In this document: in pieces, positions 3,944-31,376 of the stretch
How positions within the stretch are numbered: the stretch's first letter is position 1
Layout: the number at the start of each line of letters is the position of its first letter
Made by a program: the position numbers and the translations under genes
Assembly: GCA_027483085.1 (NCBI GenBank)
Contig: JAIXVK010000140.1
Coordinates: forward strand, 1 to 35,630
Direction of reading: 5' to 3'
Origin: Comamonadaceae bacterium
Lineage (GTDB): Bacteria; Pseudomonadota; Gammaproteobacteria; Burkholderiales; Burkholderiaceae_C
DNA: 35,630 nucleotides
The notes under the pieces: model-generated
What the model saw: only the letters and a program-made list of their open reading frames with translations
Databases searched by the model: none
Told to the model about the DNA's origin: nothing

Positions 3944-5239
3944 TCAGGCCAGCGATGTCTCGACCTGGCGATCCGCGTCCGCCAGGGTTTCGGCTTGATG
4001 AGCCTGATGGTGCGCGATGCGATCTGCGATGAATTGCGCATCGCGCGCCACGCCGGAAAAACGGCCAGAGCCCCAGGTATGCAGCCATGGCAGCCCCACA
4101 AAGTAGAGACCTGGCACCGAGGTGACTCCGCGCTCGTGCACCGGATGGCCACGCCCTGTAAACACCGGTGCATTGAGCCAACGGAAGTCAGGTGCGAAGC
4201 CAATACACCAGATCACCGAGGTAATACCGGCATCTGCCAGCGACAAGGTGGCGCGCTCCTCAGCCGGAACCCAAACAGGCTGGTAGATCTCGCCCTCAGG
4301 CGCTTCAATACCGTTCTCGGCAATATGCTTGTCAATGGCTGCATTGATGCCGTTGTAGGTTCGATCTGCCTGATCGAGTGCCGTACCGAGGTTGGTTGCA
4401 AACTGCAGCGTGTCGCCCTCCAAGCCTTCGAGCAAGCCGTAGAGCTCCATACCTTCCAGTGCGAACCGGCGCAAGTCGATATCACGTCCACCGTCACGGC
4501 CAGTGACGTAGTGATTGGTGTTGTCACGCACGCCTTCGCGCAACGGGTGCTGAGACACGGGCATCTCGTAGTAGCCCATGTCAGCCAGCCAGTCCACCAC
4601 ATCGCGCCCGCGATAGAAGCGCGCGCAGCGAGGGGCATCACCAACGGCAAGCACCACCTGACGGCCCGCCAAATGCAAGTCTTCGGCGATCTGGGCACCG
4701 CTTTGCCCAGAGCCGACCACCAGCACCTTGCCGGGCGGCAGCTGATCGGCGTTGCGGTAGTCGGCGGAGTGGATCTGCTGGATGCTGGCGGGCAGTCTTT
4801 CGGCCAAGCGCGGCACGATGGGCTGGTGATAGCCGCCCGAGGCCACCACCACCTGTTCAGCCAGACACTCACCTTCGCTGGTGCGGACAAGAAAGCCACC
4901 CGCCACTGGCTGCACTAGCTCCACCGCCACGCCTTCACGCAAATGGGCATTGACCTTGGCTTTGAAGCCCGCCAGGTAGTCGTTGATCTGGTCCTTCTTC
5001 ATGAAACCATGCGGATCATCACCTTCGTAGGGATGGCCCGGCAACGCGCACTGCCAGTTGGGGGTGACCAGGCAAAAGTTGTCCCAGCGCTGGGTGCGCC
5101 AGGCGTGCATCGCTTCGTGCTTTTCAAGCACCACGTGGTCGATGTCCAGGGTCTGCAGACCATGACTGACCGACAGGCCAGCCTGGCCGCCGCCGACGAT
5201 GACCACACTGTGACGAGGGATGGATGATGAGGTAGACAT
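3944..5239 (-). CDS. MSMEG_0569-family flavin-dependent oxidoreductase (Nit1C cluster)
   Basis: 431 residues. Two dinucleotide-binding motifs, GGGQAG (16-21) for FAD and GSGQSG (176-181) for NAD(P)H, are spaced as in flavin-containing and Baeyer-Villiger-type monooxygenases. An ATG-like segment near the end (VIWCIGFAPDFRWL) and GLYFVGLPWLHTWGSGRF close the FAD domain. The sequence and position match the flavoprotein always found in Nit1C clusters. Its substrate is not established; oxidation of an N- or C-containing intermediate with NADPH and oxygen is the family-based guess. ATG at 5239 has AGGAG seven bases upstream. It sits 27 bases after the MSMEG_0570-like gene and 8 bases before the Pnap_2097-like gene, in one operon. 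Confidence 0.9.
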   Translation of the reverse strand: MSTSSSIPRHSVVIVGGGQAGLSVSHGLQTLDIDHVVLEKHEAMHAWRTQRWDNFCLVTPNWQCALPGHPYEGDDPHGFMKKDQINDYLAGFKAKVNAHLREGVAVELVQPVAGGFLVRTSEGECLAEQVVVASGGYHQPIVPRLAERLPASIQQIHSADYRNADQLPPGKVLVVGSGQSGAQIAEDLHLAGRQVVLAVGDAPRCARFYRGRDVVDWLADMGYYEMPVSQHPLREGVRDNTNHYVTGRDGGRDIDLRRFALEGMELYGLLEGLEGDTLQFATNLGTALDQADRTYNGINAAIDKHIAENGIEAPEGEIYQPVWVPAEERATLSLADAGITSVIWCIGFAPDFRWLNAPVFTGRGHPVHERGVTSVPGLYFVGLPWLHTWGSGRFSGVARDAQFIADRIAHHQAHQAETLADADRQVETSLA

Positions 5240-5266: not shown

Positions 5267-5563
5267 TCAGGATTGGGCCGGTGCAAACGAAACGACTCGA
5301 ATCGTGGCGTCTGCCTTGTTGGAAAAAACTGCTGCTCGGGCTTCGGTGTCGGCGAGCTGATCGCTAGCCCGTGAGCACTCGAAGCCGAACTTGGCGTGGA
5401 CTCTCTGATTGGCGATGGCGGTGGCTTCGCGCACTCGGCGCAAGAAGTCGTCTAGCGGGTATTCGGTCCCCGGTGCGAGGAAGTCCTCGATCACGAGCGA
5501 GGGTGAATAGGCCACGCTTTGAGAAGCGTCTGGCCATTGAAGGGTGTAGTGCATAGCAGGCAT
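5267..5563 (-). CDS. MSMEG_0570-family nitrogen starvation response protein (Nit1C cluster)
   Basis: A 98-residue soluble protein starting MPAMHYTLQWPD. The pattern of a strand with F/YTLQWPDG-like start, then SPSLVIEDFL, and a C-terminal part rich in A/R/S with FGFECSRASDQL fits the small MSMEG_0570-type protein that accompanies Nit1-type nitrilases. Its biochemical role is unknown; family naming refers to induction under nitrogen starvation in mycobacteria and cyanobacteria. I chose ATG 5563 because GGAG lies about eight bases upstream, in the 14-base gap after the glycosyltransferase stop; ATG 5554 is a weaker alternative. No membrane segment or signal peptide is seen. Gene order (after the glycosyltransferase, before the flavoprotein) supports the assignment. 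Confidence 0.8.
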   Translation of the reverse strand: MPAMHYTLQWPDASQSVAYSPSLVIEDFLAPGTEYPLDDFLRRVREATAIANQRVHAKFGFECSRASDQLADTEARAAVFSNKADATIRVVSFAPAQS

Positions 5564-5577
5564 CGGGAATCTCCGGT

Positions 5578-6789
5578 TCAGTGGGTCAGGATGGGGCGGG
5601 CTGCTTCGGTGCTCGACCGGTGTTCGGTCATCAGTTCGACATACCAGTCCTCGTGCAATGCCGCGCTGCGTTGCCAGCTGTGTTCCAGGCAGACGCGGGG
5701 CGTGGCCGCTAGGCGTGGCATGCGCACGGCATCCTGCAAACCGGCAGCGATGGATGCCATGTCTTCGGGGTTGCACCAGGCGACGCCCGGCGAGTCGTGG
5801 AAATGCTCAGTAAAGGGCGGCCGGCGAGAGACCAGCACCGGGGTGCCGCAAGCCAGCCCCTCCAGCGCGGCCAGGCCAAAGCCTTCCATCAGCGAGGGCA
5901 TAGACACCACGGCGGCACGCCGCATCAGCGCAGGCATCAGCTCATCGGACACGGTGCCGGTGCGCAACACGGGCTGACCTGCACCTTCGCTCAGACCGGT
6001 CTCTGCCAGGGTGTCCAGCCAGGCGCGCTGGGCGGCGCTGTGGTCCAGCATGCTGGCACCACCGACCACCACCAGGCGCGCGTCGGCCCAGGCTGGATCT
6101 GTGCGGCGCAGATGAGCCACCGCCCGCAGCAAGCGCACGCTGTTCTTGCGTTGCTCGACGCCACCCACCAAAAGGCAAACGGGGCCGGTCTGCGGGGCCA
6201 GTCCTATTGCGGCCAGTCGCGCTGTGTCGCCCGAGTCGGCCTCGATGTGGTAGCGACGCAGGTTCACGCCGTTGTGCATGCGACGAGCCGGATACCCCAG
6301 CACATCGTGAAAGTGACGGGTCCACAGGTCGCTTACGCAGGCCACGCCGTCCGCCGCTCGCCAGGCACGTTCTTGCCACGCCATGAGGGTCGGGTTTTCG
6401 AAAACGTCCAGGTGGTGCACCGTGCGCGCCCAGGGCGGCACGGCCAGGCCATCACGCTGCAACAGGGCCAACGCATTCCCACTGAGGCTGTCCTGCGCAT
6501 GCAGTACATCAAACCCGCCGGCGCCCAACAGAGGCGGCAGCCCTTGGACCAGGGTGTCAATGCGCTGGGACACCTGAGCCTGCAGCCCCCCTGTGAGCGT
6601 TGGCAGGCGCAGCACCTGCACCGGAAAATCCACCTCGCGGAACAGCTGCTCGCCCGGTTCTGCGGAGGCCATCACCGTCACCGAGTGCCCGCGCTCCATC
6701 AGCGCCTGAGCCAGCTCCAGCGTGTGAACCACACCGCCGCGGGCGCGCACAGAATGGGTCAGCAAGCCGATGCGCAGGCGCCGTTTCAT
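5578..6789 (-). CDS. MSMEG_0565-family glycosyltransferase, GT4-like (Nit1C cluster)
   Basis: 403 residues from ATG 6789, which overlaps the stop of the upstream AIR-synthase-like gene by four bases (ATGA). The N-terminal GT-B domain starts KRRLRIGLLTHSV with the Gly-rich RARGGVVHTLELAQAL loop. The C-terminal nucleotide-sugar domain has VGGVEQRKN (about 208-216) and the E-x7-E motif EGFGLAALE (302-310) typical of retaining GT4 enzymes. It should transfer a sugar from a nucleotide donor to an unknown acceptor in the cytosol. Its presence in the middle of the operon, translationally coupled to its neighbour, argues that the cluster makes or handles a glycosylated compound. Donor and acceptor cannot be read from the sequence. 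Confidence 0.88.
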   Translation of the reverse strand: MKRRLRIGLLTHSVRARGGVVHTLELAQALMERGHSVTVMASAEPGEQLFREVDFPVQVLRLPTLTGGLQAQVSQRIDTLVQGLPPLLGAGGFDVLHAQDSLSGNALALLQRDGLAVPPWARTVHHLDVFENPTLMAWQERAWRAADGVACVSDLWTRHFHDVLGYPARRMHNGVNLRRYHIEADSGDTARLAAIGLAPQTGPVCLLVGGVEQRKNSVRLLRAVAHLRRTDPAWADARLVVVGGASMLDHSAAQRAWLDTLAETGLSEGAGQPVLRTGTVSDELMPALMRRAAVVSMPSLMEGFGLAALEGLACGTPVLVSRRPPFTEHFHDSPGVAWCNPEDMASIAAGLQDAVRMPRLAATPRVCLEHSWQRSAALHEDWYVELMTEHRSSTEAARPILTH

Positions 6790-7781
6790 GCGGCCTCCCG
6801 ATGGGTGATGAAGGGGGTCTGCGCGTGGTCCCATAGCAAGGCTGTCGCTCCAGCGTGACCCACGGTCAGGCAACTGCCCTCCCCTACTGCCCCCACGTCG
6901 GCACATACGATGCCGCGCGACTCGAAACAAGCAGTCACCTCTCGGGCGTGCTCTGGGCGGACGCTCAGCACGTAACCAAAGCTCGGGAAAGCGCACAGCC
7001 AGCGCAGGAAACTTTCGCTATCCTCGCCCGGCCCGCCGATAGCATCGGGGCGAGGCAGGCGGTCCAGGTCGATTTCAGCTCCCACGCCGGAGCACTCCAG
7101 CAACATCAGTGCCGAGCCGAGCACGCCGGCCATGCTGATGTCCTTGCCGGCGTCGCACCAGCCAGCTTCCGCCATGGTGGGCAAAAGTTCCATGTCCCCG
7201 CGCAACCGCTCTGCCGGCGCCTCGGTGGAGGCATTCCAGAAAGGGTATGGCGCCTGCCACTGTCCGCGCAGGTCCACAGCCACCAGCAGCCGGTCGCCCG
7301 GAAGCGCCGCAAAGCTGCTGATCAGACGCTGCGCCTTTCCCAGCACCGCCACCGCCAGTTGACCGCTGTTGCTTTGCAAGTTGGTATGGCCACCCACCAG
7401 CGGAACCCCGTAGCGTTCGGCAGCAGCCCGCATACCCGCCAGCACCTCACAGGCATGGGGTTCCCCATGGGCCCAGAGAGCGTCGACCACCGCCATGGCG
7501 CGACCGCCCATGGCCGCTACATCGCTCAGATTCACCATCACGGCGCTGTAGCCGGCGAACCAGGGCATGGCCTCGACGAAGTCCTGCACTAGACCCTCGA
7601 TGGCCAACAGCAGGTGGCCGGTTCCGCTGGGGTCGGGCAGCACGGCGCAGTCGTCGCCATTGGGCACGGTCGTGAAGCCTGAGGTCGGCGCCAACTGGCC
7701 CATCACCGCGGCAATGTCCCGCTTGTGCGTGAAGCCCCGGCTGGCGCGCACGCGCGCGACCAGGTCTTCCAGCACCGTCAT
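6786..7781 (-). CDS. Sll0787-family AIR synthase (PurM)-like protein (Nit1C cluster)
   Basis: 331 residues from ATG 7781, chosen because GGGGAG lies upstream and because this start gives a four-base ATGA overlap with the GNAT gene. The fold is the PurM/HypE/SelD/ThiL type: GDDCAVLP (about 42-49) gives the acidic nucleotide-binding loop, NLSDVAAMGGRAMAVVDA (about 84-101) the Gly-rich segment, and VGGHTN the later loop. Family enzymes use ATP to activate a carbonyl or phosphorylate a substrate. The true reaction of this branch is unknown; it is clearly not purine-biosynthetic PurM, because its neighbours are the Nit1C enzymes. ATP-dependent activation of an amide or formyl group derived from the nitrilase product is a reasonable inference. 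Confidence 0.87.
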   Translation of the reverse strand: MTVLEDLVARVRASRGFTHKRDIAAVMGQLAPTSGFTTVPNGDDCAVLPDPSGTGHLLLAIEGLVQDFVEAMPWFAGYSAVMVNLSDVAAMGGRAMAVVDALWAHGEPHACEVLAGMRAAAERYGVPLVGGHTNLQSNSGQLAVAVLGKAQRLISSFAALPGDRLLVAVDLRGQWQAPYPFWNASTEAPAERLRGDMELLPTMAEAGWCDAGKDISMAGVLGSALMLLECSGVGAEIDLDRLPRPDAIGGPGEDSESFLRWLCAFPSFGYVLSVRPEHAREVTACFESRGIVCADVGAVGEGSCLTVGHAGATALLWDHAQTPFITHREAA

Positions 7782-8377
7782 GCTGTGCTCCCCTGGGTGA
7801 GCACAAAGCCGGCATATGGCGTGCGGCAAGGCGGGTAATGTTCCAGGTCAGCACGCATCAACGCGTGTACACGTCCGTGCAACACCATCTCGTCCAGCAC
7901 CTGCCAATGCATGCGCTTGAACAGCGGTACGTTTTGCGCTTGCACATGGGCCAGAAACTCGCTACATCCTTGCGCGTGGGCGCTGCACACCGCCAGGCGG
8001 ATCAGGCTGCTGCCCAGCTTGCCGTGCTGGCGCCAGTCGCGCCGCACCGCCAGGCGCGAGCCCCACCACGTGCCTGGAAGCGCTTCATGGATGCGCACCG
8101 TGCCCAGCACCTCGTCGGGCTCGCCAGCCAGGCAGGACAACGCCACCAGAGAGCGCACCGAGGGCGCGTCCCGGTCGATGTCGTCTTGATCGTCCCCGTC
8201 AAACAAACCCTGTTCGACGCAGAACACCTGGCGACGCAGCGCGTGGGCCTGCCGATTCATCCAAGGCACGCTGGCCCACTGGACGCGGAAAGCTTGTGGG
8301 CGATAGGTGCTGCTGAGATCGCACCACGAAGCCTGCGCGAGCTGCTGCTCCATCAAAGTCTGCGTTAATGTATGCAT
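7778..8377 (-). CDS. MSMEG_0567/Sll0786-family GNAT N-acetyltransferase (Nit1C cluster)
   Basis: 199 residues from ATG 8377. I preferred this over ATG 8386 because GGGGA and GGAG lie upstream at usable distances, while at 8386 the purines abut the codon. The acyltransferase core shows RRQVFCVEQGLF (an autoinducer-synthase/GNAT-like beta-alpha start), EVLGTVRIHE, and RLAVRRDWRQHGKLGSSLI, the acetyl-CoA pyrophosphate-binding loop. A later FLAHVQAQNVPLFKRMHW segment is also GNAT-like. The acyl donor is presumably acetyl-CoA and the acceptor amine is unknown. Its stop overlaps the start of the AIR-synthase-like gene by four bases. The family is a constant member of Nit1C clusters. Confidence 0.88.
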   Translation of the reverse strand: MHTLTQTLMEQQLAQASWCDLSSTYRPQAFRVQWASVPWMNRQAHALRRQVFCVEQGLFDGDDQDDIDRDAPSVRSLVALSCLAGEPDEVLGTVRIHEALPGTWWGSRLAVRRDWRQHGKLGSSLIRLAVCSAHAQGCSEFLAHVQAQNVPLFKRMHWQVLDEMVLHGRVHALMRADLEHYPPCRTPYAGFVLTQGSTA

Positions 8378-8394
8378 GTGCTCCATCCCCTAAT

Positions 8395-9540
8395 TCAACC
8401 GGCCAGCGGCGTTTCGTAGCGCGACAGCGTCGAACAGGCGGCGCAGCGGCCGCAACCGGCCTTGATATCGCCAGCCCGCAAGCCAGCGGAAGCCACCATT
8501 TCGCCCAGCGGACCCAGCACGTTGCGCATGAAATCGGCCGAAGGCGCCGGCCTGTCTTCCAGCGGCGTTCCGCTGATGGGCACGAAGGGCACGACGAAGG
8601 GGTAGACGCCCAGGTCCAACAGGCGCTGGCTGGTGGCCAGCAATGTCTCGGCGCTGTCGCCCAGGCCGGCGAGCAGATAGGTGCTGACCTGGCCACGCCC
8701 GAACACGTCCACCGCTGCGGCGAACGCATCCCAGTAGCGGGCCATCGGTACCTCGGCCTTGCCAGGCAGGATCTGCTGACGCAGGTCCTCGCCCACCACC
8801 TCCAGGTGCATGCCCAGCGTGTCCACGCCTGCGTCTTTAAGGCGCTGGAACCAAGCGTCAGTGTCAGGCGGTTCGCACTGTGCCTGCAGCGGCAGATCCA
8901 CCGCCGCACGGATGGCTTCAGCGCTCTCGCACAGGATCTGCGCACCTCGGTCAGGGGTGGGCGGTGTACCGGTGGTCATGACCATGTGCTTCACGCCATC
9001 CAGCTCCACGGCGGCCTTGGCCACCTCGGCCAGCTGGGCCGGTGTCTTGCGGGCGATGGTGCGCCCCGCTGCGAGCGACTGGCCGATTGCGCAGAACTTG
9101 CAGGCCTTGCGCCGGCTTTCGTAGCGGATGCAGGTCTGCAGCACGGTGGTGGCCAGAACATCGGCGCCGTGCAGGGTGGCGATCTGCTGGTAGGGAATGC
9201 CGTCGGCGGTGCTCAGCCCGTAGAAACGTGGCTGGGTCGGGAAACGGATGCTCGCGATGGGGATGCTGCCCCGGCGCAGCACACTCAATCCGTCAGCACC
9301 CGGAGCATCAGCCACGAAGGGCGAACTGAACGCCGTGGCCGTGTGCACCGGCACCATCAGCGTGACGCCGTCCACCGTCACGGCCTTGTGGTCCGAAGGA
9401 CCAGCCCCGCCCCGGCGGCTGGCAGCCCCCGCCGACGGATCCACCAGGCGCAGACCCTGGGATTGCAGCTCGGTCATCAGCTGCCGGCTGTCCGGTGCAT
9501 CCGCTAGGCGCGGCGGCGTGTCGAAGGCGATCGCGGTCAT
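8395..9540 (-). CDS. MSMEG_0568-family radical SAM protein (Nit1C cluster)
   Basis: 381 residues from ATG 9540, chosen because GGAG then sits six bases upstream; ATG 9546 would place GGAG directly against the codon. The cluster-binding motif is CIRYESRRKACKFC (about 137-150), that is C-x9-C-x2-C instead of the usual C-x3-C-x2-C, followed by AIGQS. VKHMVMTTGTPP and LGMHLEVVGED are barrel elements of the radical SAM core. Near the C-terminus a second cysteine group, CGRCAAC, could hold an auxiliary Fe-S cluster. Family members accompany Nit1-type nitrilases; the substrate is unknown. A lipoate- or biotin-synthase-like sulphur insertion, or a C-C bond rearrangement, cannot be told apart from sequence. 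Confidence 0.9.
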   Translation of the reverse strand: MTAIAFDTPPRLADAPDSRQLMTELQSQGLRLVDPSAGAASRRGGAGPSDHKAVTVDGVTLMVPVHTATAFSSPFVADAPGADGLSVLRRGSIPIASIRFPTQPRFYGLSTADGIPYQQIATLHGADVLATTVLQTCIRYESRRKACKFCAIGQSLAAGRTIARKTPAQLAEVAKAAVELDGVKHMVMTTGTPPTPDRGAQILCESAEAIRAAVDLPLQAQCEPPDTDAWFQRLKDAGVDTLGMHLEVVGEDLRQQILPGKAEVPMARYWDAFAAAVDVFGRGQVSTYLLAGLGDSAETLLATSQRLLDLGVYPFVVPFVPISGTPLEDRPAPSADFMRNVLGPLGEMVASAGLRAGDIKAGCGRCAACSTLSRYETPLAG

Positions 9541-9552
9541 GGTCATCTCCGT

Positions 9553-10563
9553 TCAAAGGGGGTTGAGGGCGTCGTTGGCCGGGCCGGCGGGCGGCTCGAC
9601 GGTGAAGCTGGGTTCCGCGTCGGCAGCGGGCCAGGGCCGGGTCGTGCGGTTGGGCTCGCGGCGGACTGCCAGGCTCAGCAGCTCGGGGCGTGCGTAGTGA
9701 CCCACCGAATCCATCATGCGTTTGCGTTTCTGGATCAGGGCCATGTCCAGATCCGCGATTACCAGGCCCTCGCCTTCGGTCAGCGGTTCGGCCAGGTACT
9801 TGCCTTCGGGCGAAACAATGGCGGTGTGGCAACCACCGCGCAGCGCGCCCTGCAGCTTCTCGTCCGGCGTGACCGAGCGGATCTGTGCGTCAGTCAGCCA
9901 ACCGGTGGCATTGACGACGAAGCAGCCCGACTCCAGTGCGTGGTGGCGGATGGTCACGCCCATTTGCTCGGCAAAGATCGGGCCGACCAGCGAGCCAGGG
10001 AACTGCGCGCAGTGGATTTCTTCGTGCTCGGCCATCAGCGCATAGCGCGCCAGCGGGTTGTAGTGCTCCCAGCAGGCCAGCGCGCCGACACGGCCGACGC
10101 GGGTGTCAACCGCCACGAGCCCCGAACCATCACCCTGCCCCCACACCATGCGCTCATGATAGGTGGGCGTGATCTTGCGGCGTTTGAGCAGCAGGCGGCC
10201 GTCGGCGTCGAAAACGATCTGCGTGTTGTAGAGGCTGCCGTGGTCGCGCTCGTTGACGCCGAGCACCACCACCATGCCGGCCTCGCGCGCCGCGGCCGCC
10301 ACAGCGTCGGTCATGGGACCGGGCACCGTGGGCGCGCGCTCCATCAAGAGCAGGTGCGCGGGGCCTTGCAACACGGGCGGCTGAATGAAGGAAAAATAAG
10401 GGTAGTAGGGAACGAAAGTCTCGGGAAAGACGATCAACTCCACGCCCTGCTTCGCGGCATCGCGGATCGTGTCCAGCACGCGCGCCAGGGTGCCATCGGC
10501 GCTCTCCAGGTCAGGGGCGATCTGGGCGGCAGCGGCCCGTACGGTTCTCTTCATGTCAGCCAT
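9553..10563 (-). CDS. Nit1-type nitrilase
   Basis: 336 residues from ATG 10563, selected because CGGGAG lies eight bases upstream in the 16-base gap after the preceding stop. The catalytic triad of the nitrilase superfamily is complete: Glu48 (VFPETF), Lys130 ([15 protein letters not shown]) and Cys164 ([10 protein letters not shown]). CWEH is typical of true nitrilases (branch 1), which hydrolyse nitriles to carboxylic acids and ammonia. The gene context (Nit1C) has been linked in Pseudomonas to assimilation of cyanide as nitrogen source, so hydrogen cyanide or a cyanide adduct is a candidate substrate; aromatic nitriles giving benzoate are a second possibility given the benzoate genes 14 kb away. 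The C-terminus (after about 295) is a Pro-rich, probably flexible tail. Cytosolic. Confidence 0.93.
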
Positions 10564-10579: not shown

Positions 10580-11062
10580 TCAAAGCGTCCAGGTGTCAAG
10601 GATGAGTGCGCCGTCTTTGCGGTGCAGCAGCACGATATCGAGCACGTCCAGCGGATTGATCGGGCGGATGCCTTCGATCAGCGCGCCTTCGCCATGCCCA
10701 TAAAGCGCCTGAAGTGCGAAGCGGCAGGCATACACCTTGCCACCTTCTGCGATGAACTTGGCGATTTGTTCATTGAAGTTCTGGTGACCCGGGAAAGCCG
10801 AGTCGCCGAGCTTAGGAAACCCGCGCTTGACACCCAGCGTCACGCCCGGACCGTACAGCAGGATGGAGGTTTCGAAGCCCTTGCGCTGCAGCCGGGTCGC
10901 CTGTAGCAGGTTGACAAAACCGATCGAGCCTTCGAAAGCCACAGTGTGAAAGGTCACAAGAGCTTTTTCGCCAGGTGCGGCCTTCACGTCCTCGAAGACT
11001 TTCTCTTCGTAGTCGACCAGGAAATCGCCCTTTTGGGCTGCGGGATGTGTAACTTGAGGCAT
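10580..11062 (-). CDS. MSMEG_0572/Sll0783-family nitrogen starvation response protein, first gene of Nit1C operon
   Basis: 160 residues from ATG 11062 with AAGGAA seven bases upstream. The sequence ([29 protein letters not shown] split over about 18-46, then [24 protein letters not shown], and [27 protein letters not shown]) has the look of a DsrE-like alpha/beta fold with one cysteine (in YACRFA). It matches the small protein that opens Nit1C clusters and is induced by nitrogen limitation in cyanobacteria. A role as carrier or accessory of the nitrilase or another cluster enzyme is inferred only. It is the promoter-proximal gene: a sigma-54-type promoter candidate lies about 85-100 bases upstream. 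Confidence 0.85.
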
Positions 11063-11144
11063 GGTGTTCCTTTTGCAGAGGGTTAAACATCGGGCTCTGT
11101 AGAAGCCCGGTCAGGTCCAGCACGCGCTGGCTCCGGTTGATGTA

Positions 11145-11161
11145 TTGCGAAGGGCGTGCCA
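11145..11161 (-). promoter_or_regulatory. Sigma-54 (-24/-12) promoter candidate for the Nit1C operon
   Basis: Read on the minus strand, the bases are TGGCACGCCCTTCGCAA. Compared with the consensus TGGCACG-N4-TTGC, the -24 half is perfect, the spacing between GG and GC is exact, and only one base of the -12 half differs (TCGC for TTGC). Transcription would start near 11135, giving a leader of about 73 bases before ATG 11062. Nitrogen-type control by sigma-54 fits the operon content. No sigma-54 activator gene is adjacent; the nearest one is at 16254. Confidence 0.65.
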
Positions 11162-11187
11162 GGCTTGCACCGCTGCCACCGACCAAT

Positions 11188-11370
11188 ACCCAATCAAAGA
11201 GGCGTAGTGATAACGCAGACGTTCAGACACGCTGACGACACCACTCACCCATGCACCAAAAAAAGGTGAGACCCATGCAATCAATGCACCCAATCAATTG
11301 ACGGGACGCACCGTTTTGGCTCGAGAAACTCGACTCCCGGCCATGCAATCTTCGACTGATAGATGCAAAC
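11188..11370. repeat. Direct-repeat-rich control region between Nit1C and mocR-type gene
   Basis: ACCCAATCAA occurs at 11188-11197 and again at 11288-11297, exactly 100 bases apart. The core ATGCA recurs on the plus strand: ATGCACC at 11251 and 11284, ATGCAATC at 11275 and 11343, ATGCAAAC at 11363. CTCACC (11244-11249) and GGTGAG (11265-11270) form an inverted pair around an A-rich stretch. MocR/GabR/PdxR regulators characteristically bind direct repeats, so some of these are operator candidates for the divergent regulator; alternatively they bind an upstream activator of the sigma-54 promoter. Confidence 0.45.
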
Positions 11371-11413
11371 TCGGGGGGTGTTTGAGATTCCTTTTCAGCC
11401 GTTGGAAATCCGC

Positions 11414-12802
11414 ATGCCATTTACCCATTGGACAACCAGGCTCAGGAGCAGTGCGCTACCGGCCTATCAGCTAATTCCCGATCTCATCGCTGAAGATTTG
11501 CAGTCAGGTCGGCTAGCCCCTAGAGATCGCCTGCCGCCGCTGCGCGATCTGGCATTGCAATTGGGGCTCAACTACACAACGGTAGTCCGGGGATTCGCCG
11601 AGGCAAGGGAGCGGGGACTGATCGTTTCCAGGCCGGGCCTGGGCTCCTATGTGCGCGGCTCATTTATCGGATTGCCTCTACGCGCCGGCACTGGAGCCGA
11701 GATGACCATGAACATGCCGCCTGAGCTGCCGGAGCATCCTGCGATGCTTCGGGCCCAAGAAAGTGCAACCCGCTCGATTGCGCGAGCCAACGTGCAAGAT
11801 CTGATGCGCTACCAAGACTTTGGTGGGACCACCCGGGACCGGGCCCTTGCGGCTCAGTGGATCTCACAGTGGGTACCTGAAGCTGCACCCGATCGTCTTC
11901 TGGTGGCACCGGGCATCCACAGTGCACTGCACGCTCTGACCAGCCTGCTAGTGAATGCCGGACAGTCACTCTGTGTAGAGCCGCTGGTCTACCCCGGCAT
12001 CAAGGCCATCGCTACCCAGCTGGGCACCCGTTTGCACCCCCTTGCGATGGACGAACAAGGCTTAATCCCCGATAGTTTCGAGGCCGCATGCAAAAGCACC
12101 CCTGTAGGCGCCCTCTACCTGTGCCCCAACCTACACAACCCGACGACGGCTTCGCTACCGATCCGACGCCGCGAACAACTCGCCGACATTGCGTTAAGGC
12201 ATAGCGTTCCCATCATTGAAGACGATGCTTACGGCATGCTGCCTACCGCGGCTCCGCCGCCTCTCATAGAGTTCGCACCGGAGTTAACTTACTACATCAC
12301 GGGACTGTCAAAATGGTTTGGCGCTGGGGTCAGGACCGCTCACGTCTTGGCGCCGACAGTGGCTACGCATCAACGCTTGGCGGGAGCTCTGCGGGCAACT
12401 ACCGTGATGGCTTCACCATTCATCAACCACGTAGTCTCGGACTGGTTTGAACACGGTAACTCAGACGAAGTGTTGGCGGCCATTCGGGAAGAATGTCAAT
12501 GGCGCAGTGAGATCATTCGCACCTATTTGGCCAATTACGAGGTGCGGGTTCATCCATGCGGATTTCATGCTTGGCTCCCCTTGCAAACGCAAACCACCCG
12601 GCACTCCAGTGCGTCCGAAATCGCCAGTCGATTACGCAGTCTTGGCGTCGCTGCGGTAGCGGGAAGTGCTTTCTCCACCGACAGAGATCCGCCAGAGGGG
12701 CTGCGCCTCTGCCTTGGAGGCAGCCTTACGAGGGATGATTGCAGCAGGGCGTTACTCGCAGTGAGGGAGGCGCTGGAAAGCTTCGATGAAGACGTGGGCT
12801 AA
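11414..12802 (+). CDS. MocR-type transcriptional regulator (GntR HTH plus aminotransferase-like domain)
   Basis: 462 residues from ATG 11414 (GGAAA upstream); an upstream in-frame ATG at 11363 is an alternative. The N-terminal winged helix-turn-helix is GntR-like: AYQLIPDLIAEDLQSG, RLPPLRDLALQLGLN, YTTVVRGFAEARERGL, then the wing RPGLGSYVRG (about 14-80). The rest is a fold-type-I aminotransferase domain with CPNLHNPTTASLP, IIEDDAYGML and the PLP-lysine motif TGLSKWFGAGVR. Such regulators sense amino compounds or PLP itself through an aldimine. It is divergent from the Nit1C operon and shares its 350-base control region, so it is the most obvious candidate regulator of that operon, sensing perhaps an amine or amino-nitrile. 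This target is inferred from position only. Confidence 0.9.
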   Translation: MPFTHWTTRLRSSALPAYQLIPDLIAEDLQSGRLAPRDRLPPLRDLALQLGLNYTTVVRGFAEARERGLIVSRPGLGSYVRGSFIGLPLRAGTGAEMTMNMPPELPEHPAMLRAQESATRSIARANVQDLMRYQDFGGTTRDRALAAQWISQWVPEAAPDRLLVAPGIHSALHALTSLLVNAGQSLCVEPLVYPGIKAIATQLGTRLHPLAMDEQGLIPDSFEAACKSTPVGALYLCPNLHNPTTASLPIRRREQLADIALRHSVPIIEDDAYGMLPTAAPPPLIEFAPELTYYITGLSKWFGAGVRTAHVLAPTVATHQRLAGALRATTVMASPFINHVVSDWFEHGNSDEVLAAIREECQWRSEIIRTYLANYEVRVHPCGFHAWLPLQTQTTRHSSASEIASRLRSLGVAAVAGSAFSTDRDPPEGLRLCLGGSLTRDDCSRALLAVREALESFDEDVG

Positions 12803-12912: not shown

Positions 12913-13770
12913 TCAACTTTCACGACGCATGTCGTCCAGCACAGCCTGCTGCTCCCGCATGTCAGCGAACACCTCTGCAACCGTTTTTACCCGCTGTGCG
13001 GCACCATTTTGGATATCTGAGAACACTTCCTGGACTGCTGAGCTGTGAGTGATTCCGCGTTCACTGACTTGCTTCATCTGCTCCACTTGAGCCTGTGCAC
13101 CGGCACATGCGGAAGACAGTGCCTCCGCCAGCTTACCGATTTCCATGGCGGCACTGTCGGCTCGCCCCGCAAGCAGCTTCACTTCGCCTGCAACAACTCC
13201 AAAGCCTTTACCCAACGGGCCGGCGCGGGCCGCCTCAATCGCGGCATTGATCGCCAGAAGGTTTGTCTGACGAGCGATTTCTTTCACGGTTTCCACCAAA
13301 GCACCGATGCGCGCGGCGCGCTGCTGTAGGTCATCAAAAGCTTGTGAAGAAACGCCTAAGTGTCGGTCCATTTCAGCAACAGCCGCTTTGAGCTCAAGCA
13401 TGGTGCTGGCTCCTTGCGCAACGCGGCCGCCCGAACGACGAGCCAGCTCGGTGGCTGCTTCCATTTTGGCGACACAGGCTGAGACTAGCTGATCCAGCCG
13501 CACTGTATGCGCAGTTAAATGGTTTCCGTCAGCCACCATCGGGAGCGATGGGCTGGGCTCGGACGCTGTTTCCGGGTGGATTGTCTCTGGGGTGGGCGGC
13601 GCTTCAGACTTTTCGCGCCACCCTACCCAAGACAGTACGCATAACGCCAATGCAATGACGTGAACCCAGCGGGGCAACGGCCCCACCAGCAACGCCCATA
13701 GAGACAGCGCAACAAGCAGTGTGAGGGCACTGTTATGCCGAAAGCGAGGGCCCATCAACGACTGCCACAT
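12913..13770 (-). CDS. Minimal methyl-accepting chemotaxis protein without a ligand domain
   Basis: 285 residues. Two closely spaced membrane helices (about 15-31 and 36-52) are joined by only a few residues (GPLPRW), so there is no periplasmic sensor domain, and no HAMP domain follows. After a Pro/Glu/Ser-rich linker (about 54-82) comes a coiled-coil signalling hairpin with the tip [21 protein letters not shown] (164-184). The next residues read [13 protein letters not shown], where the usual E after AG is replaced by P. The protein would couple to CheA/CheW. ATG 13770 has AGGAG eight bases upstream, inside the 15-base gap after the SRPBCC gene, which suggests cotranscription with it. The missing ligand domain implies sensing through the membrane, through a partner protein, or of energy state. 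Confidence 0.9.
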
Positions 13771-15872: not shown

Positions 15873-15923
15873 ATGTTTGTCTCCTGTTGACCCCGGCAAC
15901 GTGCAGCGGGTCTCGGATCAATT

Positions 15924-15938
15924 GCAAGCGGTGTGCCA
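15924..15938 (-). promoter_or_regulatory. Sigma-54 (-24/-12) promoter for the aldehyde dehydrogenase gene
   Basis: On the minus strand the bases read TGGCACACCGCTTGC, followed by AAT. This matches the sigma-54 consensus TGGCAC-R-N4-TTGC at every defined position, with exact spacing. Transcription would start near 15912, leaving a leader of about 40 bases before ATG 15872. The divergent gene encodes a sigma-54 activator with an intact GAFTGA loop, which makes this a coherent activator-promoter pair. Confidence 0.85.
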
Positions 15939-16192: not shown

Positions 16193-16221
16193 TTGACACC
16201 GCTTGGCTTCGGATGTCTCAT
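16193..16221 (+). promoter_or_regulatory. Sigma-70-type promoter candidate for the AcoR-type regulator gene
   Basis: TTGACA (16193-16198) is a perfect -35 hexamer. After 17 bases comes TCTCAT (16216-16221), a weak -10. A start near 16229 would leave ATG 16254 as the first usable codon, which supports that start over the in-frame codon at 16203. Confidence 0.4.
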
Positions 16222-16253
16222 GTCGATCGCATTACACCTGCCCGTCACAAATC

Positions 16254-18167
16254 ATGAGCGTGTCTCCGCATCTATCCCACCCCCACTACCAGCCCCAGTC
16301 CATATGGAGTGCCCGAAAAGCCTTCTTCGAGCAGGGCGTCGCACCGGTGGGCTTGGTCAATGATGCTGTTGTGCGTTCATGGCGCCGCTGTAGTGACAGC
16401 GGCCACGCAGTGAGCGAAACGGTGGCTTTCGAGCCCGTCGAGCGAGCACACATATCACGCCTACTACAGAGCCATCAGGAACTCCTTGAGGCTGCACAGC
16501 CTGAACTCGCGGACTTGGCTGCTTCGGTTGGTGATGCTGGTTACGCAGTGCTGCTAACAGACCGGAAAGGCAGCGTGCTCGCGGTAGATGGAGCCATCGC
16601 ACAGCGCAGCGCACCACTTCGACTCGCTTTCCGGCCGGGGGTAGACCTTTCGGAAGCGGCAATCGGCACTACCGCGATGTCCGTGGCGGTTCAGGAATTG
16701 CAGCCGGTTCGTGTGCTCGGAGCCGAACATTTTTTCACCGACACACAAATCTTCCATTGCAGCGCGGCACCGGTTTTTGATGCGCATGGAAATGTCATTG
16801 CAGCTGTCGACGTCAGTCGCGATATGCCCGGCATGGTCGATAGCACACTATGGCTTGCGGCGCGCTGTGCTCAACGCATCGAACGCAGGCTGTTCCGTAC
16901 CTTGCGTGCGAGCGTGCATGTCGAAATCGACGCCGGCAGCGGTTTCGGCAGCGGAGCGGCCGGAAGCGGCGCATGGCTGGCTTTCGGGGACTCGGGGGAA
17001 CTGATGGCCGCGAACCGTGCTGCACGCAGTCTGATCGGTTTGCCTGCAGGTGGACTGGAGCTGCACTTCGATCAGCTATTCGTGGAACGCTTCGGACCCT
17101 GGATGTCGACGCTGCGTCGCAGCGATTCGGGAGCATCAATGCGCCTTCAGGACGGCGTCCGGCTGCTCGCCATGCCGCTGGACGCGCGTGGCACGGCACG
17201 GACAGGCATGTTGCCCGCACGTTCCGTCCCCGCGACAAAACCGTCATTGCAGGCGGCGCCTTCATCGGCGCCTGAGTTCGGCGATGCCCGTCTTACGCGC
17301 GAATTCGACCGGGCACTGCGTGCGGTCGCCGCTGGCTTGTCGCTCCTAGTCACTGGCGAAACCGGCACGGGCAAGGAGGTTACCGCGCGCGCACTGCATG
17401 CATCCGGGGCGCGTGCAAGTGGTCCGTTTGTAGCCTTGAACTGCGCAGCCTTACCTGGTGAGCTATTGACAAGCGAACTGTTTGGGTACGTTGAGGGAGC
17501 ATTCACTGGAGCACGGCGCGGTGGTGCCCCGGGAAAGATTGAGGCGGCGCACGGTGGCACACTTTTCCTCGACGAAATTGGTGATATGCCTCTGTCACTC
17601 CAGGTGTCCTTGTTGCGCGTTCTCGATGGTAAGGAAGTCGTACGATTGGGCTGTCATACCCCGCGCCCGGTAGATGTGAGCCTCGTCTGCGCAACCCACC
17701 GAGACCTCACTGCGCTAGTGCAACAAGGCCTCTTTCGCGAAGATTTGATGTATCGCCTGTGCGGCCACACGTTGCACCTACTGCCACTACGTGAGCGACG
17801 CGATTTCGACACGATACTCAATGCGTTGCTCAAGCGGTTCGGTGGTGATGAGGAGCTCATCAGTGCGGAATTGCGTGCGAGCTTAAAAGCACTCCCATGG
17901 CGCGGCAACCTTCGCCAGCTGGCCAATGCTGTCCAGCGCGCTGTGGCACTCGCGGACCTCGGCACTCCTTTCACGCTCGATGATTTCGGTGCCCTTGAAA
18001 CTAAGACTTCGTCTGATGTGATCAAGCCTGACACGGGTCTGATGCACGCCGTTGCCGTCCAAGCCATCGACTCTGCGCTGCAACGCTGCGGCGGAAACGT
18101 GACCCAAGCGGCGCGATTACTGGGCATGGGCCGCGCCACCCTTTACCGCAAGCTTAAACAGCGCTGA
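16254..18167 (+). CDS. AcoR-type sigma-54-dependent transcriptional activator
   Basis: 637 residues from ATG 16254. The N-terminal half is a sensor: an AcoR-like entry (VVRSWRRCSDSGH, about 40-52), a GAF domain (about 95-185, ending SAAPVFDAHGNVIAAVDVS) and a short PAS-like stretch (WLAFGDSGELMAANRAARSL). The AAA+ domain has Walker A GETGTGKE (368-375), the sigma-54-contacting loop GAFTGA (415-420), and Walker B GGTLFLDEIGD (434-444). The C-terminal Fis-type helix-turn-helix is GGNVTQAARLLGMGRATLYRKLK. There is no receiver domain, so it should respond to a small ligand, not phosphorylation. It is divergent from the aldehyde dehydrogenase, whose promoter is sigma-54-type; related regulators (AcoR, MimR) respond to acetoin, alcohols or aldehydes. 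No clear Shine-Dalgarno precedes the start. Confidence 0.92.
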   Translation: MSVSPHLSHPHYQPQSIWSARKAFFEQGVAPVGLVNDAVVRSWRRCSDSGHAVSETVAFEPVERAHISRLLQSHQELLEAAQPELADLAASVGDAGYAVLLTDRKGSVLAVDGAIAQRSAPLRLAFRPGVDLSEAAIGTTAMSVAVQELQPVRVLGAEHFFTDTQIFHCSAAPVFDAHGNVIAAVDVSRDMPGMVDSTLWLAARCAQRIERRLFRTLRASVHVEIDAGSGFGSGAAGSGAWLAFGDSGELMAANRAARSLIGLPAGGLELHFDQLFVERFGPWMSTLRRSDSGASMRLQDGVRLLAMPLDARGTARTGMLPARSVPATKPSLQAAPSSAPEFGDARLTREFDRALRAVAAGLSLLVTGETGTGKEVTARALHASGARASGPFVALNCAALPGELLTSELFGYVEGAFTGARRGGAPGKIEAAHGGTLFLDEIGDMPLSLQVSLLRVLDGKEVVRLGCHTPRPVDVSLVCATHRDLTALVQQGLFREDLMYRLCGHTLHLLPLRERRDFDTILNALLKRFGGDEELISAELRASLKALPWRGNLRQLANAVQRAVALADLGTPFTLDDFGALETKTSSDVIKPDTGLMHAVAVQAIDSALQRCGGNVTQAARLLGMGRATLYRKLKQR

Positions 18168-24456: not shown

Positions 24457-25392
24457 ATGACCGTAGCAATCTTTAATACATCTGAAGTCCAAGACTTCCT
24501 GAAACTGGCAAGTGGAATGACGCAAAAAGGCGGCAATCCCCGAACCAAGACGATCGTTCACAGGATCCTTTCGGACTTATTCAAGGCGATCGAAGATCTG
24601 GACATCACTTCGGATGAATACTGGGCGGGCATCGCATATTTGAACCAACTTGGCGCGCGCAGCGAGGCCGGATTGTTGTCCCCCGGATTGGGCTTGGACC
24701 GTTACTTCGATATGCGCATGGATGCAGAGGATGCTGCTATTGGCATCGTGAACGGAACGCCTCGGACTATTGAAGGGCCTCTGTACGTGGCGGGCGCACC
24801 AGTAGCCCAGGGATTTGCCCGGCTGGACGACGGCAGTGATACGGCTGGCCAAACGCTGATCATGCATGGCACTGTGTTCGATGCGAACGGCAAGCCGGCT
24901 CCTGGGGCAACAGTAGAGGTATGGCACGCAAACACCAAAGGCTTCTACTCCCATTTTGATCCCACCGGCGAGCAGAAACCCTTCAATATGCGTCGAACGA
25001 TTGTGACGGACGCACAAGGCCGCTATAAGTTTCAAAGCATTGTTCCTGTCGGTTACGGCTGCCCTCCGGATGGCCCAACCCAAGCTTTGCTGAATCAACT
25101 CGGCCGACATGGCAATCGTCCCGCCCACATTCACTTCTTCGTTTCTGCTGAGGGCCATCGCAAGCTGACCACTCAGATCAATATCGATGGCGATCCATTG
25201 GTGAATGATGACTTTGCCTATGCAACCCGGGAAGGACTGGTTCCCCCATTGGTGGAACGCAAAGATGCCGCAAGCTTCAAGGCCAATGGCCTGAGCGGTC
25301 CGTTCGCAGAAATCGAGTTCGACATCACGCTCACCGCTTTGGTTGACGGCGTGGACAACCAGCTTGTCGACCGCCCTCGCATGGCGGCCTGA
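24457..25392 (+). CDS. catA: Catechol 1,2-dioxygenase
   Basis: 311 residues, full length. It cleaves catechol between the hydroxyls to cis,cis-muconate with Fe(III). The four iron ligands fall at Tyr164 (KGFYSHFDP), Tyr200 (VPVGYGCPPDG), His224 and His226 (RPAHIHFFVS), the same numbering as in the Acinetobacter enzyme. The N-terminal helical dimerisation domain (about 1-100) and EGPLYVAGAP are also typical. ATG 24457 has AAGGAG upstream. It is followed by a stem-loop with T-run before benA, so it probably forms its own transcript end together with catB. Confidence 0.95.
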   Translation: MTVAIFNTSEVQDFLKLASGMTQKGGNPRTKTIVHRILSDLFKAIEDLDITSDEYWAGIAYLNQLGARSEAGLLSPGLGLDRYFDMRMDAEDAAIGIVNGTPRTIEGPLYVAGAPVAQGFARLDDGSDTAGQTLIMHGTVFDANGKPAPGATVEVWHANTKGFYSHFDPTGEQKPFNMRRTIVTDAQGRYKFQSIVPVGYGCPPDGPTQALLNQLGRHGNRPAHIHFFVSAEGHRKLTTQINIDGDPLVNDDFAYATREGLVPPLVERKDAASFKANGLSGPFAEIEFDITLTALVDGVDNQLVDRPRMAA

Positions 25393-25400
25393 TATTTGAC

Positions 25401-25444
25401 CAGGGCCAGACCGGCATCACTTAGACCGGCCCCGCCCTGTTTTT
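25401..25444 (+). terminator. Intrinsic terminator or attenuator between catA and benA
   Basis: CAGGGC (25401-25406) pairs with GCCCTG (25434-25439), with further GC-rich pairing inside (GACCGGC and GGCCCC segments), and five T residues follow (25440-25444). It lies nine bases after the catA stop, so catBA and benABCD may be separately controlled or benABCD may depend on readthrough. Confidence 0.6.
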
Positions 25445-25458
25445 CCGACTGAAAGAAA

Positions 25459-25476
25459 CCGCGACGTTTGTCGCGG
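25459..25476 (+). promoter_or_regulatory. Stable hairpin in the benA leader
   Basis: CCGCGAC (25459-25465) and GTCGCGG (25470-25476) form a perfect 7-base GC-rich stem with a 4-base GTTT loop, 31 bases before the benA ATG. No T-run follows. It may protect the 5' end of a processed benA transcript or limit translation. Confidence 0.45.
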
Positions 25477-25507
25477 CGGATGACCTCACCCCTAAGGATG
25501 CACTCCC

Positions 25508-26872
25508 ATGACCACAACCGTATCCGTCGATAAATATGCCGACGTTGAAAAGCTGTTGAACACGGCCTTGCAAGACGACAAGGAAAACGGCGTTTTCCGC
25601 TGCCGACGCGACATCTTCACTGATCCAGATCTCTTTGAACTGGAAATGAAGCACATCTTTGAAGGCAACTGGGTGTACTTGGCGCACGAAAGCCAGATAC
25701 CTGAGATCAACGACTACTTCACCACTTACATCGGCCGCCAACCTATCGTCATCACGCGCGGCAAAGATGGAAATCTGAATGCAGTTATCAATGCTTGTGC
25801 TCACAGGGGTGCCATGTTGTGCCGGCGCAAACACGGCAACAAAGGTAGTTTCACTTGCCCGTTCCACGGATGGACATTTGCCAACACGGGGAAGCTACTG
25901 AAGGTCAAAGATGAAAAGACCACGGAGTACCCCATTCAGTTCAATACCGGGGGCTCACATGACCTGAAGAAGGTCGCTCGATTTGAAAGCTACAAAGGCT
26001 TCTTGTTTGGGAGCTTGAACGCTGACGTCCAACCACTGGAGGACTTCCTGGGCGAAACAAAGGTTGTGATTGATCAAATTGTCGATCAGGCTCCTCACGG
26101 CTTGGAGGTGCTTCGCGGTAACTCTACCTACACCTACGACGGCAACTGGAAACTCCAGATGGAAAACGGAAGCGATGGTTATCACGTCAGCTCCGTGCAC
26201 TGGAACTACGCAGCAACGATGGGGCGCCGCAAAGACGGCGGTACCAAAGCCGTGGATGCCAACGGTTGGAGCAAAAGCGTTGGCGGGGTCTATGGGTTTG
26301 AGAACGGGCACATTTTGCTGTGGACCAAAACCATGAACCCAGAAGTGCGTCCGATCTTTGGTCACAAAGAAGAATTGAAAGAACGTCTCGGTGAAGCCAA
26401 GGCGGATCTGATTGTGAATCAGACCCGAAACCTGTGCCTCTATCCCAACGTCTACTTGATGGATCAGTTCTCCACGCAGATCCGCGTGACTCGCCCCATC
26501 AGTGTTGATCAAACAGAAATCACCATTTATTGCTTTGCCCCCAAAGGTGAAAGTGCTGACGACCGAGCAACACGTATCCGCCAATACGAGGACTTCTTCA
26601 ATGTGTCCGGAATGGGTACCGCCGACGACCTGGAGGAATTCCGCTCGTGCCAGACAGGCTACGCCGGGAAAGCTGCACCTTGGAATGACCTAAGCCGAGG
26701 TGCCCCCTTGTGGGTGCATGGACCTGACGATAACGCCCGAACCATGGGGATGATGCCCCTTATCAGCGGTGGTCGCAGCGAGGACGAAGGGCTGTTTGTC
26801 TGTCAACACGACTATTGGGCGCAAACCATGCGCAAGGCCTTGAAAGAAGAACGTGAAGGAGCAAAGGCATGA
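25508..26872 (+). CDS. benA: Benzoate 1,2-dioxygenase, large (alpha) subunit
   Basis: 454 residues. It is the oxygenase subunit that turns benzoate into the cis-diol acid with O2 and electrons from BenC. The Rieske [2Fe-2S] ligands are Cys97, His99, Cys117 and His120 (CAHRGAML and CPFHGW). The mononuclear iron site shows the bridging Asp223 and ligands His226 and His231 in [12 protein letters not shown]. The C-terminal region ([23 protein letters not shown]) matches BenA rather than toluene-type dioxygenases; XylX and anthranilate AntA are close relatives, excluded mainly by the benD-cat context. The ATG is preceded by AAGGATG. Its stop overlaps the benB start (ATGA). Confidence 0.95.
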
Positions 26873-27360
26873 ACCAGCACTACAACGCCGTATGTGCATT
26901 TCTGTACCGGGAAGCCCGTTTTCTTGACGATCGTGAATGGGAATCCTGGCTGGCACTTTACGCACCCGACGCTGAATACTGGATGCCTGCATGGGATGAC
27001 GACGATCAACTCACAAACGATCCACATGGCCAGATCTCATTGATCTATTACCCCAACCGGAACGGCTTGGAAGATCGTGTGTTCCGCATCAAGACGGAAC
27101 GCTCGAGTGCCTCCATGCCCGAGCCGCGCACGAACCACATGATCACCAACGTGGAGGTTTTGGCCCATACCAGTGACTCACTCGAGGTTCGTTACAACCT
27201 GCATACGCTCAGTCATCGGTACAAAGCCACGGATCACTTCTTCGGCTCGATTTTCGTGACGCTCAAGCTGGTCGAAGGCGGTGATTTTCAAATCACTCGC
27301 AAGAAGATCGTTTTGAAAAATGACTACATCCGTCAAGTCATTGACGTCTACCACGTCTAA
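26869..27360 (+). CDS. benB: Benzoate 1,2-dioxygenase, small (beta) subunit
   Basis: 163 residues, the usual length. The structural beta subunit has the SnoaL/NTF2-like fold: [24 protein letters not shown] (split about 4-27), [18 protein letters not shown], and [19 protein letters not shown] (about 72-90). It forms the alpha3-beta3 oxygenase with BenA. ATG overlaps the benA stop by four bases, so the subunits are translationally coupled. benC follows 15 bases later. Confidence 0.95.
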
Positions 27361-27375
27361 GAAGAAAGGCCCACG

Positions 27376-29183: not shown

Positions 29184-29254
29184 TCGACAAAAGCACCCCA
29201 AACCAAGACAACGCAAAAGCCGGCACCAGTCGGAACATTCAGGAGACAAGCATC

Positions 29255-30427: not shown

Positions 30428-30453
30428 TTTCAAGATTTGCATCCCTAACTACT

Positions 30454-30470: not shown

Positions 30471-30490
30471 GGCTTACGGCGGAAATCACG

Positions 30491-31372: not shown

Positions 31373-31376
31373 TGCC

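Follow-up and report, generated by a model that had tools for sequence, protein, structure and literature searches.

Comparative sequence analysis suggests a conserved two-input switch, with a sigma-54 promoter and a divergent MocR regulator, at Nit1C operons

Introduction

How might a Nit1C operon be controlled when its promoter appears to be of the sigma-54 type and the regulator encoded opposite to it belongs to the MocR proteins? The question is raised by a 35.6-kb stretch of DNA from a Comamonadaceae bacterium (the window, by which we mean the whole stretch that was analysed), where profile searches reveal a Nit1C operon, an intergenic region at 11063-11413, and a divergent mocR-type gene. 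Nit1C clusters are linked to cyanide and nitrile use. The preliminary description of this region saw in the pairing a mismatched control logic. When the locus is placed beside its relatives, the arrangement looks like a conserved two-input switch rather than a mismatch.

The Nit1C locus and its genomic setting

All seven Nit1C families and the associated glycosyltransferase were recovered over their cut-offs, giving a complete ordered set from nitB to nitH, with nitB as the first gene of the minus-strand operon on one side of 11063-11413 and the mocR-type gene on the other. Reading along the minus strand, the operon comprises nitB (10580..11062; MSMEG_0572/Sll0783 family, TIGR04044, 286 bits), nitC for a Nit6803-family nitrilase (9553..10563; TIGR04048, 574 bits), nitD for an MSMEG_0568-family radical SAM protein (8395..9546; TIGR04043), nitE for a GNAT acetyltransferase (7778..8386; TIGR04045), nitF for an AIR-synthase-like protein (6786..7829; TIGR04049), an MSMEG_0565-family glycosyltransferase gene (open reading frame 5578..6996, start probably internal; TIGR04047 over residues 75-453), nitG of the MSMEG_0570 family (open reading frame 5267..5776, start probably internal; TIGR04042 over residues 73-161), and nitH for an MSMEG_0569-family flavin-dependent oxidoreductase (3944..5239; TIGR04046).

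The source genome consists of 671 contigs and is an estimated 77% complete. Elsewhere in the window, an open reading frame with an MCP signalling domain of the chemoreceptor type (12913-13770, minus strand) lies between mocR and an aldehyde dehydrogenase gene, and a benzoate degradation region beside the Nit1C cluster (24457-33149) contains catechol 1,2-dioxygenase and benzoate dioxygenase genes, with BenC and BenD profiles over cut-off and a BenA-like match just under it, together with branched-chain/urea-type ABC transporter genes. No nitB was found in the four other genomes drawn from the window's genus, and the nearest MocR (83%) and nitB (99%) among the gathered loci both belong to one locus, L140, of another genus. 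The window's contig may have been acquired by horizontal transfer or misassigned in binning.

A probable sigma-54 promoter upstream of nitB

Sites were scored against TGGCACGN4TTGCW with GG-N10-GC required, which we take to be the sigma-54 consensus. The element upstream of nitB, TGGCACGCCCTTCGCA (11146..11161, minus strand; TGGCACG-CCCT-TCGCA when read from 11161 to 11146), agrees at 11 of 12 positions, its single miss being TCGC in place of TTGC, and both the GG and the GC are present. Its first base lies 99 nt ahead of the nitB ATG at 11062, and its position predicts a transcript start near 11135 and a leader of about 73 nt. An equally good match arises with P = 0.0026 in dinucleotide shuffles of the 301-nt region searched on both strands; across the whole window, only this site and one before the aldehyde dehydrogenase gene reach at least 11/12; and a search of 3.3 Mb of the genome gives 6 occurrences of TGGCACGN4TYGCW versus 2 of a reversed control pattern. 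An rpoN gene is present in the window's genome, the only genome checked for it.

The breadth of this comparison needs to be kept in mind when its counts are read. We gathered the 80 nitB loci nearest to the window's own among 558 confirmed ones, so the counts lean to close relatives. Within the window's family, 49 of 399 genomes carry nitB over the cut-off, the window's own among them; of the 48 others, 41 loci were fetched and the remaining 7 coincide with loci already named. These sources gave 117 distinct nitB upstream regions, 103 of them non-cyanobacterial and 14 cyanobacterial. Sixteen extra loci from outside the family partly offset the bias towards close relatives, and some of them may duplicate species; one, L165, has an upstream region identical to that of an earlier locus and is counted once in the grouping of 132 regions used below. 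The flanks are of unequal length (about 3.9-20 kb), and where we report an enhancer-binding protein (bEBP) or a MocR as absent, this means absent within the flank examined. Sequences were not weighted for relatedness, except in a lightly dereplicated set of 92 regions.

Of the 103 non-cyanobacterial regions, 101 have a -24/-12 match of at least 9/12 in the 200 nt before nitB, against 8.4% of shuffles and 14/103 on the reverse strand of the same 200-nt stretches, and 83/103 reach at least 10/12 (shuffles, 1.75%). The median distance from the end of the site to the ATG is 58 nt. Only two non-cyanobacterial regions (L069 and L151) miss a match, and none of the 14 cyanobacterial regions has one; cyanobacteria are not known to have sigma-54. 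Outside the family, 15 of 16 loci have a site within 300 nt, the one in L164 being doubtful for its unusual distance, and L169 misses. The alignment of relatives that the preliminary description had proposed as a check on its strong TGGCACG-N4-TCGC candidate thus finds the bases retained, and the candidate itself stands on its 11/12 match, the shuffle test, and this conservation. A second, sigma-70 promoter, which that description had also entertained, gained nothing from our consensus scan, in which no sigma-70-type site of at least 9/12 appears in 11040-11440, a threshold that a weak promoter could escape. Overall, the Nit1C operon is very probably under sigma-54 control, as judged from its upstream sequence.

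The one deviation from consensus is itself patterned. At 11146-11150, the -12 element reads TCGC in the window's clade, TGGC in one member (L140), and TTGC or NTGC elsewhere, and TCGC recurs in L172, a locus with a linked bEBP. This lineage-specific change to TCGC may weaken the promoter.

The divergent MocR regulator

The mocR-type gene occupies 11414..12802 on the plus strand. Its open reading frame begins at 11363, and the conserved start is the ATG at 11414, in agreement with the end of the interval (11413) given in the preliminary description. The product combines a GntR helix-turn-helix domain with an aminotransferase-fold domain that contains the PLP lysine, as expected of the MocR subfamily of GntR regulators, and no AAA+ domain was seen in it, in line with the earlier statement that this protein cannot open a sigma-54 complex. 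Its best NCBIfam match is EhuR (NF052286), as it is for the MocRs of six relatives; the window's protein scores 328 bits and all seven fall between 317 and 450 bits, under the cut-off of 480, and none of them is assigned to EhuR/EnuR. Six residues (K317, N259, D287, Y290, R324, and R448 in the numbering of the window's open reading frame) are kept in at least 98% of 98 MocRs, and by analogy with aminotransferases we take them to be PLP and carboxylate contacts. The likely ligand would be a PLP-reactive amine, probably with a carboxylate.

Grouping the 132 distinct regions by MocR linkage leaves 118 that are non-cyanobacterial. A related MocR, 38-83% identical to the window's (the window itself excluded), diverges from nitB in 104 of these and is linked without being directly divergent in 8 more, for example about 7 kb downstream of nitB in Methyloversatilis; of the remaining 6, four show no related MocR and the other two are cases of a contig edge or second copy. 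Those four are varied: a sigma-54 activator domain adjoins nitB in L064 and L172, the only MocR seen at L069 is a distant one (21%), and L155 has neither a MocR nor a sigma-54 activator within 1.5 kb of nitB. The outside-family sample agrees, with a MocR in 14 of 16 loci and a bEBP in 1. In the sampled Pseudomonadota, a predicted sigma-54 promoter with a MocR gene beside it is what one usually finds, and because the pairing is conserved we do not regard it as the oddity that the word mismatch implied. The related remark that other Nit1C clusters have a linked sigma-54 activator is borne out by NitA in Pseudomonas (PMC11049912, in its accessible parts), and it describes only two regions here (L064 and L172); because the linked NitA was described for Pseudomonas, the contrast drew on what is a minority type in this sample. 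The window does not belong to the NitA-controlled type, having a MocR in place of a linked bEBP.

Two further observations concern the arrangement of these genes. One contig (L129) carries two nitB genes about 4 kb apart, one of them without an adjacent divergent MocR, and their promoters and repeats are similar. Facing mocR itself, a -24/-12-like site of at least 9/12 occurs in 47 of 64 mid-distance relatives (for example L020, L040, and L118), against 7.7% of shuffles and 8/64 on the opposite strand; by eye, these sites often lie near or over TTGATYGCA boxes. There is no such enrichment in the window's clade (2/19) or in an alpha-like set (1/8). In the mid-distance relatives, mocR looks as if it were sigma-54 dependent and self-repressed.

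Direct repeats as candidate MocR operators

Alignments were made of the 19 closest regions and of 102 of the 103 non-cyanobacterial rows anchored on the -24 box (L069 was skipped). Apart from the promoter, what stands out most as conserved is O1, a direct repeat of 11-bp period, TTGATCGNNNNTTGATCGCA, that lies immediately upstream of the -24 box. This repeat is new relative to the preliminary description and is the most informative feature of the region. Information per column reaches 1.60 bits in the repeat boxes and 1.51-1.79 in the -24 element versus 0.37-0.45 in the spacer. In the window, O1 reads TTGATTGGG-TA-TTGGTCGGT (11178..11197, minus strand, about -62 to -43); this copy has the 11-bp period and is degenerate (12/18), and it sits at the conserved aligned position, with its second box at the relatives' distance of 25 nt from the T of TGG. 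A distal repeat, O2, TTGATTGGGTGCATTGATTGCAT (11275..11297, minus strand, about -162 to -140), has a 13-bp period and agrees with the family consensus at 21 of 23 positions; the family form, TTGATCGGGTGCATTGATCGCAT, also with a 13-bp period, is found at 19/23 or better in 68 of 112 regions. The distance from O2 to O1 in the window is 111 nt. Towards mocR, the intergenic region contains further copies of the repeat, as judged by eye.

If these repeats were bound by MocR, they should be found where the protein is found. We scored repeat pairs of at least 14/18 with periods of 10-13 within 300 nt on both strands, using a consensus derived from the MocR-bearing loci on which the pairs were then counted, with relatedness not removed. 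On this basis, pairs occur in 91 of 104 MocR-divergent regions and in all 8 in which MocR is linked and not divergent, together 99 of the 112 that have a related MocR; they also occur in both edge cases, and in none of the 18 regions without a related MocR (0/14 cyanobacterial, 0/4 other). Shuffles give 0-3.7%, depending on the group. The 13 MocR-divergent regions under the threshold include alphaproteobacteria (L058, L080) and gammaproteobacteria (L065, L076, L081). Because the pair is present in 91/104 divergent and 8/8 linked loci and in 0/18 without MocR, the repeat follows the MocR protein and not the gene arrangement. From this co-occurrence, the candidate operators O1 and O2 would, with good confidence, be sites of MocR binding. 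A genome scan with the repeat pattern, allowing 2 mismatches, returned 65 matches versus 16 for the reversed pattern, and a genome-wide MocR regulon based on it was dropped; the nit O1 is one of the two matches with a single mismatch.

Spacing and helical phasing

The distance between O1 and the promoter is restricted in a way that suggests geometry matters. Among the 87 of 112 regions with an 11-bp-period pair of at least 14/18, the start of the second box precedes the T of TGG by 25 or 26 nt in 73, by 35-37 nt in 13, and by 47 nt in 1, and distances of 27-34 and 38-46 nt are not represented. The picture is unchanged at thresholds of 13 and 15; at 12/18, four odd distances appear (11, 16, 24, and 60). 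The set fits a 10-11.2-bp period (P = 0.0002), and on a quick tree of 85 MocR rows, branch support disregarded, near and far spacings switch at least 6 times. This set of distances, the fit to the period, and the repeated switches place O1 on a constant side of the helix with respect to the sigma-54 polymerase. The rule is clearest in the betaproteobacterial types, and the alphaproteobacterial exceptions L055 and L063 have 12-bp-period pairs at other distances. The O2-O1 distances cluster at 111-115, 122-124, 130-132, 141-143, and 175-176 nt, with single values of 126, 127, 135, and 299 outside the clusters, which is suggestive of phasing between the two repeats as well (P = 0.012).

Candidate activators and alternative explanations

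An unlinked activator could be supplied by NtrC, whose gene is present over cut-off in the window's genome. At the level of the family, TGCACC/GGTGCA occurs in 61 of the 92 lightly dereplicated upstream regions versus 14.4 expected, and the partner half of GGTGC sites peaks at the NtrC spacing (2.29 of 5 matches versus a null of 1.43 +/- 0.07) in 181 sites from 81 of the 92 regions, those inside O2-type repeats being left out. As a control we turned to PII-gene promoters. A first set gave a sigma-54 site in only 3 of 30 loci (2 without an anchor and 1 almost without upstream sequence), and the 13 controls used are 12 of 18 additional copies with a site together with the PII promoter of the window's own genome (L222), which has an 11/12 -24/-12 site and an 11/12 NtrC dyad. 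Dyads of at least 9/12 occur in 64/92 nit regions versus 11/13 PII controls and in about 9% of mononucleotide shuffles. The GGTGC enrichment, the dyad peak, and the PII control make NtrC the leading candidate at family level, with a weaker signal in the nit regions than in the controls. In the window, a GGTGC element conserved in the close group, TGGTGCATGG (11249..11258, minus strand, downstream of O2), is a possible half of an NtrC-like enhancer site, and one conserved GGTGC falls within O2. The window's best NtrC-like dyad (TGCACC-N5-GGTGCA) is 8/12, no better than chance, and a clear NtrC site there was rejected. NtrC is thus moderately probable as the activator of the Nit1C promoter: it leads among the candidates for the family, and for the window its role stays putative.

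The lack of a good dyad in the window leaves some weight for a different unlinked bEBP. Four clear bEBP domains were found in the 77% complete genome: C41 (NtrC), C275, C286, and C306 (the AcoR type), and C275 or C286, for example, could serve. Against such an activator stand the NtrC-type dyad signal of the family and the NCBIfam names of several cluster families, which read "nitrogen starvation", and we consider it possible and rather unlikely.

The role of MocR is a separate matter. GabR has a dual role, repressing its own gene and co-activating at sigma-70 promoters, and by analogy the Nit1C MocR could be a co-activator that, ligand-bound and in phase at O1, stabilises the polymerase or the activator loop and represses its own gene. 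Activation by MocR is possible because phasing is not required of a repressor that does no more than block; the face-of-helix rule suggests contact over mere blocking, and O1 abuts the -24 element without overlapping it. On the other side, the nearest curated family, EhuR/EnuR, acts in repression with predicted operators over the promoter (PMC8739950, accessible parts), and repression also seems to be the role of a MocR at the cio cluster of Pseudomonas, at another locus and partly from its authors' unpublished data (PMC8567248, accessible parts). Weighing these points, we think that MocR is probably a repressor and regard co-activation as the doubtful alternative.

Could the repeats have nothing to do with MocR, being instead IHF sites that bend the DNA for an activator loop while MocR acts elsewhere? 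Such sites are often found between enhancer and promoter, where they can be phased, and the TTGAT of the repeats resembles half of the IHF consensus. The arrangement of the repeat, in two head-to-tail copies of 11-bp period with a conserved CGCA tail, is not that of IHF sites, however. None of the 4 non-cyanobacterial regions lacking a related MocR has the repeat, and 3 of these 4 do have a -24/-12 match; the copies seen by eye on the mocR side also fit this explanation poorly. IHF as the sole explanation of the repeats was rejected, and we consider the reading improbable.

Also improbable is activation by the AcoR-type bEBP of the window (16203..18167, plus strand; AAA+ with GAFTGA, Fis helix-turn-helix, and a weak GAF match in the domain search), which is the nearest sigma-54 activator and has GAFTGA. 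It lies about 5 kb away, is not conserved as a neighbour of Nit1C (in the examined flanks, 107 of the 108 other non-cyanobacterial loci from the 80 nearest and the family set have no bEBP domain, and 1 has), and likely has its own target in a separate 11/12 -24/-12 site, TGGCACACCGCTTGCA (15923..15938, minus strand), before the divergent aldehyde dehydrogenase gene. The preliminary description had offered NtrC or this protein, with MocR adding repression or ligand control; the option of NtrC with MocR fits best, and the AcoR-type half of the proposal was rejected.

A two-input model for Nit1C control

We propose that sigma-54 RNA polymerase would transcribe the Nit1C operon from the element at 11146-11161, and that, when nitrogen is limiting, the complex would be opened by an enhancer-binding protein that is global and unlinked, most likely NtrC. 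The divergent MocR would supply a second, pathway-specific input. It would bind O1 (about -62 to -43), on a fixed helix face relative to the promoter, together with the distal O2, and by default would keep the promoter shut, either by blocking the approach of the activator or by closing a loop between O1 and O2, until a PLP-reacting ligand lifted the repression. The comparison documents conservation of the predicted promoter, of MocR, and of the repeats, the co-occurrence of MocR and repeat, and the spacing rule. MocR binding to the repeats, its repression, NtrC as the activator, and the kind of ligand are what we infer. Taken as a whole, with sigma-54, an unlinked NtrC-like activator, and a MocR gate, the model seems to us somewhat more likely than not.

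Only tentatively would we generalise further, to a PLP-dependent MocR acting at sigma-54 promoters by face-dependent contact or looping, with O1, O2, and the -24/-12 element mutually phased, in a proteobacterial Nit1C module that gates a global nitrogen activator through a nitrile-pathway metabolite, and with mocR itself under a -24/-12 promoter in many betaproteobacteria. The elements defined here make the control of MocR-type Nit1C clusters directly testable, and the MocR ligand would point to the physiological substrate of the cluster, which would be a PLP-reactive, probably amino-acid-like compound.

Comparison with known systems

In the open literature searched, we came across neither a MocR at a sigma-54 promoter nor control of Nit1C by a MocR. 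The main text of a MocR regulon survey (Suvorova and Rodionov 2016, PMC5320631) yields no match to "nitril", and its accessible parts give no sigma-54 case; in the tables of the survey the group may stand under another name; the 2005 Nit1C paper, in its accessible parts, could not identify conserved upstream sites (PMC1199592). If the model is true, sigma-54 promoters join the reach of MocR regulators.

A close known system is the Nit1C operon of Pseudomonas oleovorans CECT 5344, where, in the accessible parts of PMC11049912, the same operon is preceded by a divergent, linked bEBP, NitA, in the place that MocR holds here. One bEBP-linked locus of our 16-locus phylum sample, L172, has a sigma-54-like promoter, TGGCACAGCCTTCGCT, and the TTGATCG repeat pair is absent from it and from L064. 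The PII-gene promoter of the window's genome (glnK type, L222) resembles the nit promoter in its 11/12 -24/-12 site and upstream GGTGCA elements and differs in its 11/12 NtrC dyad, which the window's nit promoter does not have.

Among MocR proteins, the regulators of ectoine use, EhuR/EnuR/EutR, form the closest curated family and share the PLP site, and the ATTGT half-site of EnuR, the nearest characterised relative and a repressor, resembles ATTGAT; unlike the Nit1C repeats, their operator is an inverted repeat (ATTGTn6ACAAT) predicted over a sigma-70 promoter, and they regulate other genes (PMC8739950, accessible parts).

HutC, the local regulator of the hut genes, is not of the MocR type. 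The logic of Pseudomonas hut (NtrC/CbrB and HutC) is nevertheless a close match, since there too a global nitrogen or carbon bEBP and a local, ligand-sensing repressor of the GntR family meet at one sigma-54 promoter, NtrC activating hut and the HutC footprint overlapping the sigma-54 site of hutU (accessible parts of PMC8871633 and PMC12977541). In general form, then, a sigma-54 promoter under the joint control of a local repressor of the GntR family and a global activator is already known; what would set the Nit1C switch apart is that HutC binds TGTA-N2-TACA over the sigma-54 site, whereas here a PLP-type MocR would act from phased direct repeats upstream of it.
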